A stretch of 23,751 nucleotides of DNA, taken from a virus. Within the stretch, counting starts at the first letter, position 1. Each line of letters starts with the position of its first letter. Below the pieces are notes generated by a model, which worked only from the letters and a program-made list of their open reading frames with translations, was not told where the DNA came from and did no database searches. The stretch lies in IMG/VR virus record IMGVR_UViG_3300030102_003732, positions 1 through 23,751 of that record; one strand, given 5' to 3'. Positions 12,732 through 21,587 of this stretch are shown here, one piece after another. The translations under genes and the position numbers were made by a program.

Positions 12732-15128
12732 TTACCCTGCTTCGAGGGCTGTGACTTTTGCTGATAATTCTTTTATTGCATTTACTAAAACAGGAATTAG
12801 TTGATCTCCTTTAAATTTTAGATTATCTAAATCTTTATTATCAATAATTACACTGTCAGAACCTTCTAAAGCAAGAATATCTTGAGCATAGAATCCATAT
12901 CTTTTATCACCATGTTTTTCATCAGAATTACGATTCTTTCTAAACCAAAATGATTTTGGTTTTAGTTGATTTACAAAATCTAAACCATGAGAAACAACAC
13001 CATCTTCAATCTTGTCTCTCTGGTCTGAAGTGACTGTAAAAGCTACTTTTATGTAAGCATTACTTGAACTATTATTTCCCAAAACTATATTATTACTTCC
13101 AGTCGTAATTGATCCACTTGGAGAATCTGATCTTCCCGCAGCATTTCCTAAGCAAAGATTATTTGCACCAGTAGTAATGTCTATACCTGAACTTTCACCC
13201 ACAGCAGTGTTATCACCTCCTGTGGTAGAAACGTTTAAAGAACTAGCACCAATAGCTACATTTGCACTCGCAGTTGTATTAGCTTCTAAAGCACCCCTAC
13301 CAACAGCTACGTTTGAAGGCCCAGTTGTATTTGCTACAAGTGCTTCAACACCTATAGCAGTATTATTTGATGCAGTTGTGTTTGCTCCTAAAGCTGATTG
13401 TCCCATCGCTACATTAGCTGAACCTGTAGTATTAGCTCCAAGAGCATTTTTTCCTATTGCTATATTTTGATTTCCTGTAGTGTTTGCATCAAGAGCAATT
13501 GAACCTACTGCCACGTTGTCTGCTCCAGTTGTGTTTTGTTGTAGTGCAAGATGACCTACTGCGGTATTGTTAGAAGCCGTTGTATTTAGAGCTAAAGCTT
13601 CAAAACCTATAGCTGTGTTTTGACTTCCAGTTGTGTTAAATACTAAAGATTGTCTTCCTAAAGCAGCATTGCTATGTCCAGTTGTATTAGTAGTTAGTGA
13701 TTGATCTCCAACTGCTGTATTGTTAGATGCAGTAGTATTCGCATCTAATGCTTGACTACCCACAGCTACGTTCTGTGTTCCCGTTGTGTTTGCTACTAAA
13801 GCGTTATATCCAACTGCGGTGTTATTATCTGCCGTTGTGTTTGATTGTAAACAACTATGTCCCACCGCAGTGTTATTAGCTCCAGTTGAGTTGTTTTGTA
13901 AACTAACTGTACCCAAACCAGTGTTGTTATTTCCAGTTGTGTTTGCAGATAAAGCGTAAGCCCCTGCAGCTACGTTTCCAGCTCCAGTTGTCGTAGCTCC
14001 TAAAGATGTATAGCCAATAGCTGTATTAAAATCTGCTGTTGTATTGGCATCTAAAGCTAAAGCACCGATAGCCACGTTTTGAGTTCCAGTAGTGTTTGCA
14101 AATAAAGCACTCGTTCCAACTGCCGTATTATTACTTGCCGTAGTGTTTGAATATAAGGCAGCAGATCCTATCCCTGTATTGCTTGCTCCTGTAGTGTTTG
14201 TCAATAAAGCCTCTGTTCCTAAAGCAGCATTATTATCTGCAGTTGTATTTGCTTTTAAAGCATCTTTACCAACTCCTGTATTCGCTGCTCCAGTTGTGTT
14301 TGCATTTAATGATTGATAACCAACAGCAGTATTATTTGAAACAGTATTATTATTTAAAGCATTTCTTCCAACAGCAGTGTTCTGAGATCCAGTTGTATTA
14401 AGAAACATGGCAGCATAACCAACTACTGTATTATCTGCTCCAGTACTATTGGTATTTGAAGCAAAAGTTCCAATAGCAGTATTTTGTGCTCCAGTTGTGT
14501 TTGCTGTTAGTGCTGACCTACCAACAGCAGTATTGCTACTTGCCGTAGTATTAGCAAATAAAGCTCCTGAACCAAGAGCAGTGTTTTGCGCCCCAGTTGT
14601 GTTTGTATTTAAACTTAAGTCACCAGCAGCAGTATTGTTACTTGCAGTTGTGTTTGAACCTAAAGATCCTCTGCCCACAGAAACATTTGAAGTTCCAGTT
14701 GTATTTAAGGTTAATGAATTTGCTCCAATCGCAGTGTTGTTACTTGCTGAAGTGTTTGCTCCTAAAGCTCCTTTACCGATAGCAGTATTATTTCCACCAG
14801 AAACAGAAGCATCTAAAGCACTTTCTCCAAGAACAGTGTTACCAGCAACAGAGTTTGCTCCTTTACCTATATTTATACTATTTATAGTTCCATCTAAAGG
14901 AAAAGCAGGTGCGCCTGCAAGACTAAATAAATTTATATGAGCATTATTAGTAGTATTTCTTAGCTGCATCATGCTGGATGATGTATTAGCAAAAAATTGA
15001 CTTGCGTAATTTGTACTTGGTGCTGACGATCCAGAATTATTACTTGAAATTGCTAATAAAGCATTATTTATATCAGCCCTGACATTTGCTCCTGTGGAGT
15101 TATCTATAACATAATCGTGTTGTGCCAT
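12732..15128 (-). CDS. Tail fibre with 17-aa repeats and S74 chaperone domain
   Basis: The 798-aa protein is a probable trimeric fibre for host adsorption. Residues 1-80 resemble the N-terminal attachment region of cyanophage fibres as I recall it (MAQHDYVIDNSTGANVRADI). Residues 97-656 are 33 tandem 17-residue repeats of the pattern NTAVGxxALxxNTTGxx (one is 16). They resemble the Asn/Gly-capped beta-helix repeats of YadA-type heads. Two degenerate units follow, to about 690. Residues 691-798 are a peptidase-S74 intramolecular chaperone: the catalytic Ser-Asp in TSDQRDK (S701, D702), GFYAQDI, and a C-terminal helix LIPVLVNAIKELSAKV. Such domains trimerise and cut themselves off before S701. 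The gene directly follows J in the tail block. Strongest evidence is the S74 motif. Confidence 0.85.
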   Translation of the reverse strand: MAQHDYVIDNSTGANVRADINNALLAISSNNSGSSAPSTNYASQFFANTSSSMMQLRNTTNNAHINLFSLAGAPAFPLDGTINSINIGKGANSVAGNTVLGESALDASVSGGNNTAIGKGALGANTSASNNTAIGANSLTLNTTGTSNVSVGRGSLGSNTTASNNTAAGDLSLNTNTTGAQNTALGSGALFANTTASSNTAVGRSALTANTTGAQNTAIGTFASNTNSTGADNTVVGYAAMFLNTTGSQNTAVGRNALNNNTVSNNTAVGYQSLNANTTGAANTGVGKDALKANTTADNNAALGTEALLTNTTGASNTGIGSAALYSNTTASNNTAVGTSALFANTTGTQNVAIGALALDANTTADFNTAIGYTSLGATTTGAGNVAAGAYALSANTTGNNNTGLGTVSLQNNSTGANNTAVGHSCLQSNTTADNNTAVGYNALVANTTGTQNVAVGSQALDANTTASNNTAVGDQSLTTNTTGHSNAALGRQSLVFNTTGSQNTAIGFEALALNTTASNNTAVGHLALQQNTTGADNVAVGSIALDANTTGNQNIAIGKNALGANTTGSANVAMGQSALGANTTASNNTAIGVEALVANTTGPSNVAVGRGALEANTTASANVAIGASSLNVSTTGGDNTAVGESSGIDITTGANNLCLGNAAGRSDSPSGSITTGSNNIVLGNNSSSNAYIKVAFTVTSDQRDKIEDGVVSHGLDFVNQLKPKSFWFRKNRNSDEKHGDKRYGFYAQDILALEGSDSVIIDNKDLDNLKFKGDQLIPVLVNAIKELSAKVTALEAG
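13161..14840 (-). repeat. 33 tandem 51-bp coding repeats
   Basis: This is the DNA of the 17-residue repeats in the fibre. The unit is degenerate at the DNA level, with one 48-bp unit (the tenth). Many units alternate between NTTG and NTTA at positions 12-15, so a 102-bp double period is present. The repetition keeps the opposite strand free of stops over long stretches. Confidence 0.85.
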
Positions 15129-15170: not shown

Positions 15171-18100
15171 CTAACTACCACGTCCGAAACCTACAGCAGT
15201 ATAACTAAATGTTTTATTTTGAACAGCATTTCCAGCATTAGTAAATTTTATTGTAAAACCACTTCCTGATATGTTAGTTAATTCAAATTTATCAGTGCCA
15301 CCTAAATCATTTGCAGTAATACCAATACTAGGAAGTTGTGAACCTGCTGCAACATCAGTGCCAGTAGCACCTGTAAAAAACGCATGGTCAAAAGTAACAG
15401 CAAGACCAGATGATGATGTACCAGAACTTAAATTACTTTTCTGTTCAGTTCTTCTATCAAGTTCTGCTGTATAACCTAATTGATCTATTTCTATACTTTG
15501 TGCAGGGTCATCACTATCCATTTCACATCTAAACTTGAATCCTCTTCCTATATGAGTTCCATTTGCAAAAGTATTGAATGTTTTACCAGTAAAATCACTA
15601 TCTTGATAACTTGAACCATTTGAAGGTGCTGCTGAAGTCACTGCTACTGTCAGTTTTGCATTGACATCAAATGCAGTTGCTTGGTCAAAATCAGTCCAAG
15701 TATCTATATTTGCTGTTCTTTTATCAACTAAATCGTTAGGATAAAAACCTTGCGTAACAAAATGTCGTGTAAGTCTTAATGGGTGAACAGATCCTAAGTC
15801 TAAAATATTTGCAAAATCATAACTGCCACCTGTAATATCAACAGCCCCTAAGAAATCAAAATCAGCAATAGCATCAAAATCTGTTACATCATCTAAAGTT
15901 TCTAATGATCCAAGAACAAGACCATTAACATCTTCACTGAAAAAACAATCTACTTTTGTACCACCAAAAGGAGGAGAATCTGTATCTTCTCTATCTGTAA
16001 AAGCAACTAATTTTGGAAGAGGGTCTGGATTTACAACAACAACAGATGTTTCTCCACTGCTTAAACGTCCACCATCGTCTTTAAATTTTAATATATATTC
16101 TCCGTCAATTGCTGGCACTAGTGTTTCAGATACGTTGCCAGATAGGGCTGGTAATATATCAACAGAATTAGTAAAAGTACCAGTACCATCAGTCAAATTA
16201 CTATGCCTAATAACTACGTTTCCACCATGTATAACGTCAACATCTGTTGATTGATTAAAACGTAAACGTAATAATTGATCTGATATTGGTTCTACTAATA
16301 AACCTGTGACATCTGCTGGCAAAGCAGTTTTACCTACAGCTTTGAAATCATCTATTGATGCTGCTGTGGTGCTTAATATACCCAGTGCATTGTATGACTG
16401 CACTTTAAATTTATAACTTCCTAACCTAGATTCAAAAAGTTCAAAGTCTGGTCTTGATACTCTAAAAACTTCAACGCTATCATTTTCAAATTGTGATTCA
16501 ATTCTGTATTCTTTAACTCCTTGTATAGGTTCCCATGAAACAAATATTTTAGAGACAGCACGATTATTTAAAACAACAATCTGCTCTACAGCCGATAATC
16601 CTGAAGGTGGTGGCTTTACATCTAATAATGTTGTTACATTTCGAGGTTGTGCAGCAATAGTAGTATCTTCAACTTGAGTATATTTATTTACATCATGTAT
16701 TATCGCTGAGACTGTATATTCAGTTTCACTTGATTCTTCGATAGAAATTACTCTATATGTTTGAAATTCTACAGATGTATTTTCTATAGCCCAAACACTA
16801 TTAGCTTGTGGCACTGCTGAAAATGCTGATGACACAGTAATTGTTTTATCAGATATAGTACTTATTGATCTAGTTTCCATAGTCCCGTCAGGTAAAACAA
16901 CAGAAAGAGTTGCAGCATTTTCTGTAGTCAAATCTGTATTATTTGCATCATCAACAATAATCTGTGTACTAGAAACACCTGTGTTTATACGTCCACCTCT
17001 ACGAACACCAGCCCTCAAACTATCTGCAATTCCTATTATCATTGAAGGTCTAACAATAACACCAGCTTCTAATGTTGTTGTAAAGCTACATACTTCTGTT
17101 TCTCTTAAATTTGTATATAAGAACCAACGACCTAACCTGTTCGCTTGTCCTCTTGACGTACAGGCAAAAGCTTTAATTGTTTTTCTAGTCTTGCCATATT
17201 TTGAAGGAAAAGAGGATAATGCAGTTACATCACTAGCTGTTACTAATTCATAATCAATTTTCTGCGTGTCATTATCAAAGTAAGCTACTTCTACCTCTGT
17301 GAATTTTGTTCGCTGACCTGTTCCAGTATATGTAAATCCACTTTCAGTTACATTTGCATTTGTAAATAAATATTCTGCATCAGATGTATTCGTGTCTGTA
17401 TTTGTTGGTCTATCTTGCCCTATTTGTAATGTGCCAACACTATAAAAAGGCATAGCGTTCATAACAGAACATAAATCATTTATTACTGTATAAGCATCAT
17501 TCTTTTGATTTAAAATTACATTACAGCTAAATCTTGGCTCTGTTATTCCTGTTATTGGATCTGTAATTATCTCACTTGCATATTTAGATGCTTGGAAAAA
17601 AGAAAACACATCTAATGAATCTTCAGATACAACACCATCAGGGCCACCAAAACCTTTATCTGTTGTTAACAGATCATATAAAATCCAAGCTGGATCTGCA
17701 CTCCACTCTTTGTCAGTTTTAAACGTACCATTAAAAGTTCCTGTATAAGAAATAGCTCCATTATCCACATCTACAGTTCCGTTATGTGGAATTTTAATTT
17801 TTGTTCCTTTAACCCTATACATTCTTTTAGGAAAGGATTGAAAAGATTGTGCATTAAATCTTAGTGCTACATAAGCAAAGCCTTGATATGACTGTGATTC
17901 CGTAATTATTGTTGTGAATGATAAAAAATTAGTTGCATTTGCCAAAGTAGATACAGTACTGTCATCTGTATTTCTTATAACTGTGACAGTTAAAGGAAAT
18001 TGTAGATTTGAACTTTCTAAATCAATCTCATAATCTTTTACAAAAGGACTTGTAGCTTTACCATTAATAGAATTTTCTACAACTGGATTATGTACAGTTC

Positions 18101-18641
18101 CATCATTTTCTGTTATTCGTATTGATATTTTTACTTCTGTACCAACTATATCGCCATCAGATTGAAAATTTTGCAAAGCTGGAATCTGTATAGATACTCT
18201 TATAATTTTTATTAATTCATTACCATCTGTATCTTGAACACCTGTGATTGATCTTGAAACAGATGCACTTTTTGTTACTGGAACACCAACAGGAATTGTA
18301 TTTTCTATTCGATCAGGGCCAAACGTATCAAATGTACTTAAAGGTTGTTGATCATCAGTTCCATTTCTAAAAAAAACTTCTACATCTTCAAAATTTAAAT
18401 CTCCATTAGCATTTACTAAAGGAGTATTGTCTAAAAAAATATCTTTTCCAATATTTAAAGAATCTGTTGTAGATGGTAATGTATTTGTTGGACTTCTAAA
18501 ACCTTCAATTTCGCCATAACCTAATAAATCTATAACTGTTGCAAATTGTTTACTTCTTAAACCACCTTCTATTAAATCAGGGTCTAAGGCTCTGCTGTCA
18601 GGTCTCCTTCCAAATAATTCATCATCAACTAATCTAGGCAT
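15171..18641 (-). CDS. J: Tail tip / host specificity protein, lambda gpJ-like
   Basis: The 1156-aa length is close to lambda J (1132 aa), the central tip protein that binds the receptor. Family features: N-terminal LRSKQFATVIDLLGYGEIEGF, the GFAYVALRFNAQSFQSFPKR region (about 260-280), and a WILYDLLTTDKGFG segment (about 330). A tip-core region follows, with SFPSKYGKTRKTIKAFA and GQANRLGRWFL. A fibronectin type III domain lies at about 680-780 (VSWEPIQGVKEYRIESQ). The last 400 residues are beta-rich with less recognisable sequence, where host-range differences usually lie. It is placed right after I, as in lambda. No ribosome site is visible. Confidence 0.85.
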   Translation of the reverse strand: MPRLVDDELFGRRPDSRALDPDLIEGGLRSKQFATVIDLLGYGEIEGFRSPTNTLPSTTDSLNIGKDIFLDNTPLVNANGDLNFEDVEVFFRNGTDDQQPLSTFDTFGPDRIENTIPVGVPVTKSASVSRSITGVQDTDGNELIKIIRVSIQIPALQNFQSDGDIVGTEVKISIRITENDGTVHNPVVENSINGKATSPFVKDYEIDLESSNLQFPLTVTVIRNTDDSTVSTLANATNFLSFTTIITESQSYQGFAYVALRFNAQSFQSFPKRMYRVKGTKIKIPHNGTVDVDNGAISYTGTFNGTFKTDKEWSADPAWILYDLLTTDKGFGGPDGVVSEDSLDVFSFFQASKYASEIITDPITGITEPRFSCNVILNQKNDAYTVINDLCSVMNAMPFYSVGTLQIGQDRPTNTDTNTSDAEYLFTNANVTESGFTYTGTGQRTKFTEVEVAYFDNDTQKIDYELVTASDVTALSSFPSKYGKTRKTIKAFACTSRGQANRLGRWFLYTNLRETEVCSFTTTLEAGVIVRPSMIIGIADSLRAGVRRGGRINTGVSSTQIIVDDANNTDLTTENAATLSVVLPDGTMETRSISTISDKTITVSSAFSAVPQANSVWAIENTSVEFQTYRVISIEESSETEYTVSAIIHDVNKYTQVEDTTIAAQPRNVTTLLDVKPPPSGLSAVEQIVVLNNRAVSKIFVSWEPIQGVKEYRIESQFENDSVEVFRVSRPDFELFESRLGSYKFKVQSYNALGILSTTAASIDDFKAVGKTALPADVTGLLVEPISDQLLRLRFNQSTDVDVIHGGNVVIRHSNLTDGTGTFTNSVDILPALSGNVSETLVPAIDGEYILKFKDDGGRLSSGETSVVVVNPDPLPKLVAFTDREDTDSPPFGGTKVDCFFSEDVNGLVLGSLETLDDVTDFDAIADFDFLGAVDITGGSYDFANILDLGSVHPLRLTRHFVTQGFYPNDLVDKRTANIDTWTDFDQATAFDVNAKLTVAVTSAAPSNGSSYQDSDFTGKTFNTFANGTHIGRGFKFRCEMDSDDPAQSIEIDQLGYTAELDRRTEQKSNLSSGTSSSGLAVTFDHAFFTGATGTDVAAGSQLPSIGITANDLGGTDKFELTNISGSGFTIKFTNAGNAVQNKTFSYTAVGFGRGS

Positions 18642-18647
18642 AATAAA

Positions 18648-19487
18648 TTAATTTGGATTTCTTTCTGTAATTTTAACAGTGTTGTCTGCTGAATTTCCAT
18701 AACTTTGACTGTTCCACTGTCCAAGAGAAGCTTCAAAAGTATTTGTCATAACATTTTCAACACCAAATCTTGCTCCACCATCTACATTTGAACCAGCTAA
18801 AGGCCCTGTGAGAAAATCTAAACGAATACTTTCACCATTTGATAAACCGTGGTTATTAATATGTACAGTAATTCTATTACCAGATTGTCCATAAGTACCT
18901 TCATCAGTTATAAGTGACACTAACTGAACAGTATCAACACCTGCACTGATTAAAATTGATCCGCTATAAACATATCCATATAAAATTGGTACAGGCACAC
19001 CGCTAGTACTAACATTTTGTATGCCAGAAAAATTATATGATCCCCTTATATTTGGATCTGTATCACCAACAGAACTTTGATTATTTGTTGGTTTATTGTC
19101 ACTTAATAACTGTGAGGCTAATGATAAACCTGCTAACAATAAAACATTACTTAAACCACCAGTAGCAAAAGCTAAAACAAAAGGCAAAGCATTTGCAATA
19201 ACAAAATTAAAAGCATCACCAATAAAATCAAATACAAAATCACTTCCAACTGCAACTGGTATTATTTGTATCTCACCCTGACCTTTTAATGATAATAAAT
19301 CTTGTGTTATTACATTTCCATTCATTTTTACTTTATAAAAATTACTTTTCATGTGGCTTTCAAAACCAGCAAAATTAGCTTTTAAAAAATTAAAAGCCTG
19401 TTCTGGTGAACTAACAGCAGCTTCAAAAGTTGACTGACCTAAAAATTTTCTTAATTTTCCATATACCTTTATTGTTTTAAGCTGCAT
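18648..19487 (-). CDS. I: Tail assembly protein, lambda gpI-like, with extra domain
   Basis: Lambda gpI acts in tail-tip assembly. The N-terminal 80 residues have the ubiquitin-like beta-grasp sequence of the family (TIKVYGKLRKFLGQ ... IQIIPVAVGS). A Gly/Ala-rich hydrophobic stretch follows (residues 81-130) and then GVPVPILYGYVYSGSILISAG. The last 78 residues, from GTYGQSGNRI to the end, are the same beta domain found in the L- and M-like proteins. I chose the ATG at 19487 because AAGAGG lies about 10 bases upstream; the GTG at 19499 would leave no space for it. It overlaps the K gene by 11 bases. Confidence 0.8.
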   Translation of the reverse strand: MQLKTIKVYGKLRKFLGQSTFEAAVSSPEQAFNFLKANFAGFESHMKSNFYKVKMNGNVITQDLLSLKGQGEIQIIPVAVGSDFVFDFIGDAFNFVIANALPFVLAFATGGLSNVLLLAGLSLASQLLSDNKPTNNQSSVGDTDPNIRGSYNFSGIQNVSTSGVPVPILYGYVYSGSILISAGVDTVQLVSLITDEGTYGQSGNRITVHINNHGLSNGESIRLDFLTGPLAGSNVDGGARFGVENVMTNTFEASLGQWNSQSYGNSADNTVKITERNPN

Positions 19488-20184
19488 ATCTATAAACACC
19501 TCTTAGTGCTTTTTGGTATTTTAAACCATAAAATTCTCTACAACTTAAACGATAATAAGAATGATTTAAAATCATCATATCTCCAATATAAACAGCAACA
19601 TGAGATGGTTTTTTTAATGCACCGCTAAATAGTAATACATCACCTTTTTGTATATCATCATTTGTTTCTTGTTTTTTAAAATTAGATTCTGTCAATACTT
19701 TTTCAAAATATGGATTATCAGCAAACTCTTTTAATGTTTTTGGTCTAGGCCAATATTTTATATTAATATTTTTTGTTTCTTTAAACCAATCTGTTACTAC
19801 AGACCAACAATCATATTTTCCCCATATAAACTTACGTCCAATTAAAGAAGGGTTTTTCCAATTTTTTGGTTCTAATGTTATCCAATCATCAGTTTTTAAA
19901 CTGTAAATATAATAAGGAAATCCAATATGCTCACAAGATGCTTTATCTGCTTCTGAAGCAATCGCTGGGCCTTGAGGATGACTGTGAAAAACTCCTAATA
20001 TTTCTCCTGTATCCTCACATTCAGCCCAGTCTTCGGGATCTAACATAAAAAATTCATGGGTTGTTTCTGCTAAATTTTTACAAGGCCAGAAAGTTTGTTC
20101 GCCATTAATTATTGCTAATAAACCACAAGCTTCTTTTGGTGCTTGTTCTTTTGCATATTCAACAGCTTTAGCTTTCCAACTCAT
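19477..20184 (-). CDS. K: Tail tip peptidase, lambda gpK-like (JAMM + NlpC/P60)
   Basis: Residues 1-110 are a JAB/MPN metalloprotease domain: E18 in KEACGLL and the exact JAMM motif HSHPQGPAIASEAD (H67, H69, S77, D80), which binds zinc. Residues 115-235 are an NlpC/P60 cell-wall hydrolase domain: C126 in YDCWSVV and H195 in SHVAVYIG, with N207-H208 as the third catalytic position. In lambda-like tails this protein helps tail-tip maturation and local opening of peptidoglycan. Its ATG is 2 bases after the L stop, and the product is complete at 235 aa. Confidence 0.9.
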   Translation of the reverse strand: MSWKAKAVEYAKEQAPKEACGLLAIINGEQTFWPCKNLAETTHEFFMLDPEDWAECEDTGEILGVFHSHPQGPAIASEADKASCEHIGFPYYIYSLKTDDWITLEPKNWKNPSLIGRKFIWGKYDCWSVVTDWFKETKNINIKYWPRPKTLKEFADNPYFEKVLTESNFKKQETNDDIQKGDVLLFSGALKKPSHVAVYIGDMMILNHSYYRLSCREFYGLKYQKALRGVYRYAA

Positions 20185-20186
20185 AA

Positions 20187-21008
20187 CTAACCATTTACAA
20201 AAGTACCAACACCAATAAAATCTGCCCTTGTTACGAGTTTTTTAGGTGCGCCAATACCAGCTAAATCAAAAGTACTTATTAATTCAAATTGTACAATATC
20301 CCTATTTTCTGTAATTTTTCTTTCTATAAAATAAATTTCTTTTGGCATTTCAGCGGTAGGATCTACTGAACCGATTTTATATGGATTTATATTTGATGGA
20401 AAGTTTTCTTCATCTAAGAATCTTGCCAATGTACGCCTGCGTGTAACTTTTGCAGCCGATAAATCAGAAAAAGGTGTTGTTTGATTTACTAATAAAAGTA
20501 TAGTGGTAATTGTTCCAAGAAGATTTGAAAAAGTTAAGGTAGGTCTTGGAAGCTTACCTTCCCCAGAATATTTAAAACCTTTTGCCTCACAAGGCATCCT
20601 TGTATATGTATTAGATTGCCATACAATATCTAAACTATCTTTCATGTTATTTCCAGCATGAAAAAGATAAACTGTAGGTTCTGTAATCGTTGAATTTACA
20701 TTAAAAGAAACATTACCACTTGTAGATTGTGAAGCTGTTGCTGTGACTGTAAATGTATTTGCATCTGAAACTGTTTGAATAGTATAAATTCCATCAGTAG
20801 CATTACCAGATGTAAAATCAAGACTTAATATCAAACCGATTGAAAACCCATGACTGTTTAAAGTGATCGTTATGGTAGTGCCACTTTGAGAATATGTAGC
20901 TGTCTTTGCAACCTTTGTATAATGAACATCAGCTTTCAATTCAACAGAAAATAATTCAATGATTGATTTATTTGTAAGCTGTTGCAACTCAGGTACAGGA
21001 TTAGCCAT
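20187..21008 (-). CDS. L: Minor tail protein, lambda gpL-like, with inserted domain
   Basis: Family features are the N-terminal ELFSVELK strand, then VYLFHAGNN, IVWQSNTYTRMP and CEAKGFKYSGEGKLPRPTLTFSNLLG. The core ends with RRRTLARFLDEENF, followed by YFIERK and VQFELIST. A 73-residue beta domain (about 33-105) is inserted between the first strand and the YLFHAG strand. The protein stops after PKKLVTRADFIGVGTFVNG. The Cys-rich iron-sulphur C-terminal part of lambda L is missing, and the next gene begins at once, so this is not a simple frameshift. The ATG abuts the M stop. Confidence 0.8.
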   Translation of the reverse strand: MANPVPELQQLTNKSIIELFSVELKADVHYTKVAKTATYSQSGTTITITLNSHGFSIGLILSLDFTSGNATDGIYTIQTVSDANTFTVTATASQSTSGNVSFNVNSTITEPTVYLFHAGNNMKDSLDIVWQSNTYTRMPCEAKGFKYSGEGKLPRPTLTFSNLLGTITTILLLVNQTTPFSDLSAAKVTRRRTLARFLDEENFPSNINPYKIGSVDPTAEMPKEIYFIERKITENRDIVQFELISTFDLAGIGAPKKLVTRADFIGVGTFVNG

Positions 21009-21587
21009 TTATGGTTCAAATACCTCTCTGAATTTACAGTTTATAGTTGCTCTGTTTGCAAATTGTATGTTTTTTGTCCAAGAATCACAAACAAAATTTC
21101 CTTCACCAGACAAGGTTATGGAGACATCGCCAGAATCAGTTGCGCTATTACTCGTAGTTACTGTAAATACATTATCATTAGTAACTGATGCAACAACAAA
21201 AGACCCATCTGTAGGAGAACCACTAGCAGTTGAAGTGTAATCAATAGATAAAACATCACCTATTGCAACTCCATGATTATTAATAGTTATTGTTGCTGTT
21301 GTTGTTGATTGACTATATGTGCCTGTTTTCGTAAAACCTTCTCCTGGTGGTGTAAAAGTAAAACTTGCCTGATCGTTTAACCTGCTTCTTAAAAAGCCTT
21401 CAATTACATCGGACTCTTCTTCTGTAATATTTGTAAAAATTAAATCATACTCTTTAGGATCTTGCGAGAATGGTAGACCATATAAAGCTCTAAATTCATA
21501 TCCATCACCTAGCTTGCTAACTTTTACTTTAGGTTTACTTTGTTTGCGTAAGCCAAAGGATGGTTCTATTGATGGAAAAGTTGCCAT
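21009..21587 (-). CDS. M: Minor tail protein, lambda gpM-like, with inserted domain
   Basis: Lambda gpM takes part in tail-tip assembly. Residues 1-81 show the family pattern PSFGLRKQSKPKV, LGDGYEFR, EEESDVIEGFL and FTFTPPG. The pattern resumes at residues 164-192 with NFVCDSW and NCKFREVF. Between them, residues 86-160 are an added beta domain, flanked on both sides by GEG (82-84 and 161-163). Without the insert the protein would match the usual length of about 110-120 residues. The ATG overlaps the tape-measure stop by one base. Confidence 0.85.
   Translation of the reverse strand: MATFPSIEPSFGLRKQSKPKVKVSKLGDGYEFRALYGLPFSQDPKEYDLIFTNITEEESDVIEGFLRSRLNDQASFTFTPPGEGFTKTGTYSQSTTTATITINNHGVAIGDVLSIDYTSTASGSPTDGSFVVASVTNDNVFTVTTSNSATDSGDVSITLSGEGNFVCDSWTKNIQFANRATINCKFREVFEP

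Follow-up and report, generated by a model that had tools for sequence, protein, structure and literature searches.

Little is known of what sets the host range of uncultured marine siphophages, and a 23.75-kb viral record with a GC content of 33% (23,751 nucleotides, analysed whole and called the window here) raises the question of why similar beta domains occur in several proteins of a single phage tail tip, how they came to be there and what they might do. The minus strand of the window encodes a lambda-type tail operon in the order tape measure H, M, L, K, I and J, followed by an S74-domain protein, and both gene order and homology match the lambda-type tail-tip operon H-M-L-K-I-J (Table 1). 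A preliminary description of this DNA had reported a shared segment of about 75 residues in three consecutive tail-tip genes, M, L and I. All three do belong to the tail tip, but they are not consecutive, as K intervenes between L and I. The M model superimposes on lambda gpM (8iyk) with a TMt of 0.86 and an rmsd of 2.2. By its Cys count the window L is without the C-terminal four-cysteine [4Fe-4S] domain that has been termed universal among gpL homologues (PMC10721106). Complete L proteins of marine clades A, B and C have zero to two Cys, and those of S-H1, S-CBS4 and KBS-S-2A have five or six.

Table 1. Tail-tip genes of the window and the barrel sites within them
Feature	Position	Strand	Details
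gpM-like distal tail (Dit ring) protein	21009..21587	-	192 aa; PF05939 Phage_min_tail, 6e-12
Barrel in M, residues 88-158	21114..21326	-	between FTPPG and FVCDSW; AlphaFold model and endosialidase matches
gpL-like hub protein (HDI)	20187..21008	-	273 aa; PF05100, 1e-27
Barrel in L, residues 36-103	20700..20903	-	between strands 1 and 2 of the HDI sandwich
K-like protein (JAB + NlpC/P60)	19477..20184	-	separates L from I; without barrel
gpI-like plug/tail assembly protein	18648..19499	-	283 aa; phrog_32, E 5e-28, residues 6-192; MoaD-like N-terminus
Barrel appended to I, residues 200-276	18672..18902	-	sequence/profile match; AlphaFold and Foldseek
gpJ-like hub/central fibre protein	15171..18641	-	1156 aa; phrog_31, 1.5e-164; barrel absent
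J site empty or deleted here, residues ~997-1023	15575..15653	-	further barrel in close relatives L012, L018, L023 and L030 (protein and DNA alignment)

Sequence and profile comparisons agree that the domains in M, L and I are homologous and lie where they had been reported. Over 70 residues, identity between the M and L copies is 53% (Z 20.5 in a Smith-Waterman comparison with shuffles), and the relationship of the I copy is weaker but clear (Z 11.5 for M-I and 10.9 for L-I). Profile-profile comparison unites all three, with E-values of 4.6e-23 for M-L, 6.4e-14 for I-L and 3.2e-13 for I-M, which is at odds with three unrelated folds. The common core measures 68-77 residues, a range that replaces the initial single estimate. 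Nucleotide identity among the three copies is just 58, 50 and 52%, so the copies have diverged at the DNA level and any spread is not recent, as had been suggested. No fourth barrel copy was found elsewhere in the window. Candidate barrel calls at J residues ~120-205, which overlap the FNIII-A region, were dismissed as instances of the same domain on account of a weak profile match (probability 11-47%).

The nearest structural relatives are endosialidases. M was modelled with AlphaFold from 44 sequences (mean pLDDT 84), and in this model the lambda gpM core is interrupted by a barrel with pLDDT block means of 79-92; the I model is poor overall (mean pLDDT 52), with block means of 79-90 for residues 201-280. 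The best Foldseek match of the I model is the phi92 endosialidase 4hiz, and the M model matches 4hiz, endoNF 1v0e, 3gvj and 3ju4 in addition to lambda gpM. Searched by sequence against structure chains, the M profile recovers 4hiz (E 6e-7) and 1v0e (6.5e-4). Fold (4hiz, 1v0e, 3ju4) and homology thus agree in assigning the domain to the endosialidase beta barrel (Pfam PF12195, End_beta_barrel): it is the fold that both M and I copies adopt in the models, and the L copy belongs to the same barrel family as judged from its sequence. Against the PF12195 model itself, with its curated cut-off of 35 bits, M scores 31.9 bits, L scores 19.3 and I gives no match, whereas the barrel of the P-SSP2 major capsid protein passes with 36.4 bits. 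Foldseek also returns look-alikes without known sugar binding, namely the Uba1 FCCH domain and the F1-ATPase barrel.

The related barrel of the K1F endosialidase binds polysialic acid and is a hotspot of host discrimination (PMC12632334). The phi92 (4hiz) and K1F (1v0e) barrels have an HG-x3-GD turn in common with the window copies. They differ in setting, as the endosialidase barrel is part of an enzyme and the window barrels are inserts in tail-ring, hub and plug proteins, and in the presumed binding residues: the polysialic-acid residues of K1F are Ser, whereas marine copies have a conserved Asp at those positions, and each of the three window copies has Asp opposite S460 and S468 (numbering inferred from the Ser spacing). 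The ligand is therefore probably not sialate.

The distribution of the barrel was scored at ~300 loci in three clades, an AG-345-A17-like clade, a Prochlorococcus MED4-184/P-HS2-like clade and the window clade. The first has no barrel in M (81/81) and none in L; the second has the M copy in 80/80 and lacks the L copy save at one locus; the window clade carries the M copy in 130/130 and the L copy in 138/140 of those scored. The pattern across clades is therefore stepwise: none, M alone, M and L. Aligned with the window gene, the empty M site of AG-345-A17 reads FDFEAPGE-SASQKFVCETW, and at the empty L site of MED4-184 strand 1 runs straight into strand 2; the L site is also empty in AG-345-A17 and S-H1. 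Since barrel-free homologues of M, L and I all exist, the barrels are true inserts and not normal parts of these families, in line with the preliminary description. Target-site duplication was considered for the GEG flanks of the M barrel; relatives have A-E-G, G-A-G and T-A-N at these sites, and the flanks, being unconserved, do not represent a duplicated target site.

Several loci of the other two clades depart from the common architecture. The sole barrel-bearing L of the MED4-184-like clade (L208:5570-6388) lies on a contig found with an MED4-184-type M query, which is possibly a mosaic. The 330-aa L of AG-345-A17 (L085:5893-6885) has an unrelated insert at a different site, with a cupredoxin-like pattern HPLRI...YYCSTHGNSM and no Pfam match. 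MED4-184 has its JAB (K-like) domain fused to a ThiS-like I (L084:5881-6849), and a separate K is absent.

The preliminary description also proposed that a single module had spread inside the tip. The homologous fold accords with this idea, but the spread itself does not follow from the relationships among copies. In a tree of 68 columns, copies sort according to the protein and site that they occupy and not according to genome, and of ~500 copies just one finds its best match at a different site. M-L similarity is the same within a genome as between genomes (0.468 vs 0.468, p=0.53), and concerted evolution between M and L leaves no signal in this comparison; co-occurrence of the GSGGAG loop motif in the M and L copies of one genome is just suggestive (Fisher p=0.056). 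Related barrels are also found outside the tip: unrelated phages, cyanophages among them, have them in capsid, tail-tube (phrog_457), fibre and baseplate proteins and in proteins annotated as internal virion proteins. In P-SSP2-like podoviruses, for example, residues 288-356 of the major capsid protein (L089:643-1956, P-SSP2) form this barrel. A search of cellular genomes with the L core found no relative.

A history in which M was the source of the L, I and J barrels by copying within the genome in this lineage, with subsequent divergence, would account for the mutual identity of 43-47% among the M, L and C-terminal J copies, and for the clade pattern, by which M seems older than L and I. We nevertheless consider it unlikely, given that M and L lack excess similarity inside genomes, that cross-site best matches are so rare, that I copies group (with weak support) beside podovirus tail-tube copies, and that the few capsid, tube and fibre copies are as near to M and L as M is to L. 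The AU test does not reject one clade for the M, L and I copies (p=0.38), so spread may still have been their origin, but the proposal of a single module spreading inside the tip is unsupported in its original wording.

The barrels behave differently from the genes that carry them. In some pairs of M, L or I genes the cores are over 90% identical but the barrels only about 40-50%. In DNA windows along the I genes of L012 and L005, identity is 97-100% at the gene start, ~85-93% nearing the domain and 35-57% inside it, and M and L show comparable drops at the barrel. Over the divergent pairs as a whole, flanking DNA is mostly 75-100% identical and the domain ~33-65%; sharp divergence is confined to the barrel. 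Such pairs are a minority of those sampled with close upstream DNA (18/351 for M, 16/177 for L and 8/37 for I). Mean identity is lower in the domain than in the core for M (73 vs 86%) and I (55 vs 64%), hence the barrel evolves faster than the core in these two proteins. Identities of core and domain are poorly correlated (0.26 for M, 0.32 for L), and the domain tree resolves discrete, highly supported allele clades.

Rapid point evolution in place, with no cassette exchange, could also yield divergent alleles. The generally higher variability of the barrel fits this explanation, as does the search for a donor of the divergent L allele (L108/L147), which found identical copies alone and none outside L. 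It is hard to reconcile with the fairly sharp boundaries, the discrete allele clades and the low correlation between core and domain in M and L, and we regard it as quite improbable. Recombination between viruses is the simplest reading of the allele replacement. What is new here is the occasional replacement of the barrel as a unit, in the manner of a cassette, at the M, L and I sites alike; a limited search of open-access text found no description of cassette behaviour across several tip proteins.

The I and J sites differ by gain and loss. The I copy is present in 22/86 de-duplicated window-clade genomes, and mapped on the L-core tree its presence or absence requires 11 changes, of which well-supported branches force no fewer than 5; it is labile within the clade. 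A search for the source of the window I allele found only seven close copies, 68-99% identical. A C-terminal copy occurs in all but 4 of 38 distinct complete window-clade J proteins, and 5/38 have a second copy near residue 290. The C-terminal copy is missing from the window J itself and from its lineage (L004, L009, L011 and L014). The J of L012 has this copy, and its first 900 residues are 97% identical to those of the copy-less L011. The I copy is present in all four cases that lack the J copy; because these four share one lineage, the association is a mere observation. The I proteins of L031 (3356-4495) and L104 (1967-3151) have an extra domain with the pattern GTGYxxxPxxxxxGGGG ahead of the barrel, and the C-terminal end of I seems to be a place where domains are added.

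The lambda tip has a ring of six gpM and a hub built from three gpL and gpJ, with gpI as the plug of the lumen (PMC10721106, PMC11101478). By homology, and by analogy with evolved Dits, surface decoration or glycan binding by the barrels is plausible, and our favoured explanation is that exchangeable PF12195-like barrel modules probably decorate the tip of marine lambda-type siphophages as outward host-glycan adhesins; the parts of it that we infer are the outward position, the glycan binding and recombination as the cause of replacement. The barrels would occupy tolerant spots, in a hairpin of the M ring, in the first hairpin of the L HDI sandwich and after the last hub-threading strand of I. 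Those in the M hairpin and first L hairpin may project from the ring, and the appended I barrel could lie outside because the strands of lambda gpI thread gaps between gpJ hub domains (PMC11101478). With lambda copy numbers of six M, three L and three I, up to 12 barrels might surround the tip and bind weakly and multivalently to the host glycan coat before J engages its receptor. Variation of host surfaces would then favour gain and loss in I and J, and allele replacement in M, L and I through recombination between viruses.

The barrels could instead be structural inserts that brace the rings of the tip or set their spacing (M on L/J, L on M) with no host binding. Fixation, or near fixation, of the M and L copies in the window clade is what an assembly role predicts, and the look-alike folds lie inside large protein machines. 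However, close clades manage assembly with no copy in L or in M, the I and J copies are gained and lost, and the alleles are replaced and diverge faster than the core, and a purely structural role appears rather unlikely to us. On the other hand, surface adhesion alone is hard to square with the presence of similar barrels in annotated internal virion proteins of other phages.

Decorated tail tips are already known as a kind, to which the barrel case adds a variant. The closest parallel for M is the evolved Dit of Gram-positive siphophages, in which inserted CBMs promote adsorption (PMC10688798, PMC7291167). Both are Dit-type ring proteins with an internal, clade-variable beta module and presumed glycan adhesion, and the flanks of the M insertion match the classical form. 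They differ in that evolved Dits have a BppA CBM inserted in loops of a peripheral galectin domain, whereas M consists of a gpM-type ring domain and the endosialidase barrel alone, without a galectin-loop insertion; unlike in evolved Dits, the module of the window type recurs in L, I and J, and its glycan binding is only presumed. T5 pb9 and DT57C Dit align with the M model over most of its length, each with a ring domain and an extra barrel; in T5 pb9 the latter is an OB fold, with a different relative orientation (rmsd ~9 A) and ~10% identity to M. Ig/FNIII-like domains are promiscuous in phage virions, and weak surface binding has been proposed for them. As with the barrel, they are small beta domains dispersed among capsid, tail and fibre proteins that are unrelated to one another, but their fold is different, and the barrel is repeated within one tail tip with alleles replaced at orthologous sites.

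A broader proposal, which we put forward tentatively, is that the M, L, I and J barrels form a multi-site cassette system in marine lambda-type siphophages, in which every site has a separate pool of recombining alleles and the combination of alleles sets the host surface that is recognised. If so, barrel cassettes at fixed sites that are easy to recognise in these four proteins would be candidate host-binding alleles readable from metagenomes, the evolved-Dit idea would reach from phages of Gram-positive bacteria to the lambda-type tail tip, and hub and plug proteins could bear decoration besides Dit and fibre. As to fibres, window positions 12732-15128 encode a 798-aa protein with NTTGxxNTAVGxxAL-type repeats and an endosialidase-chaperone (S74) domain near its end, which is probably a side fibre or spike.
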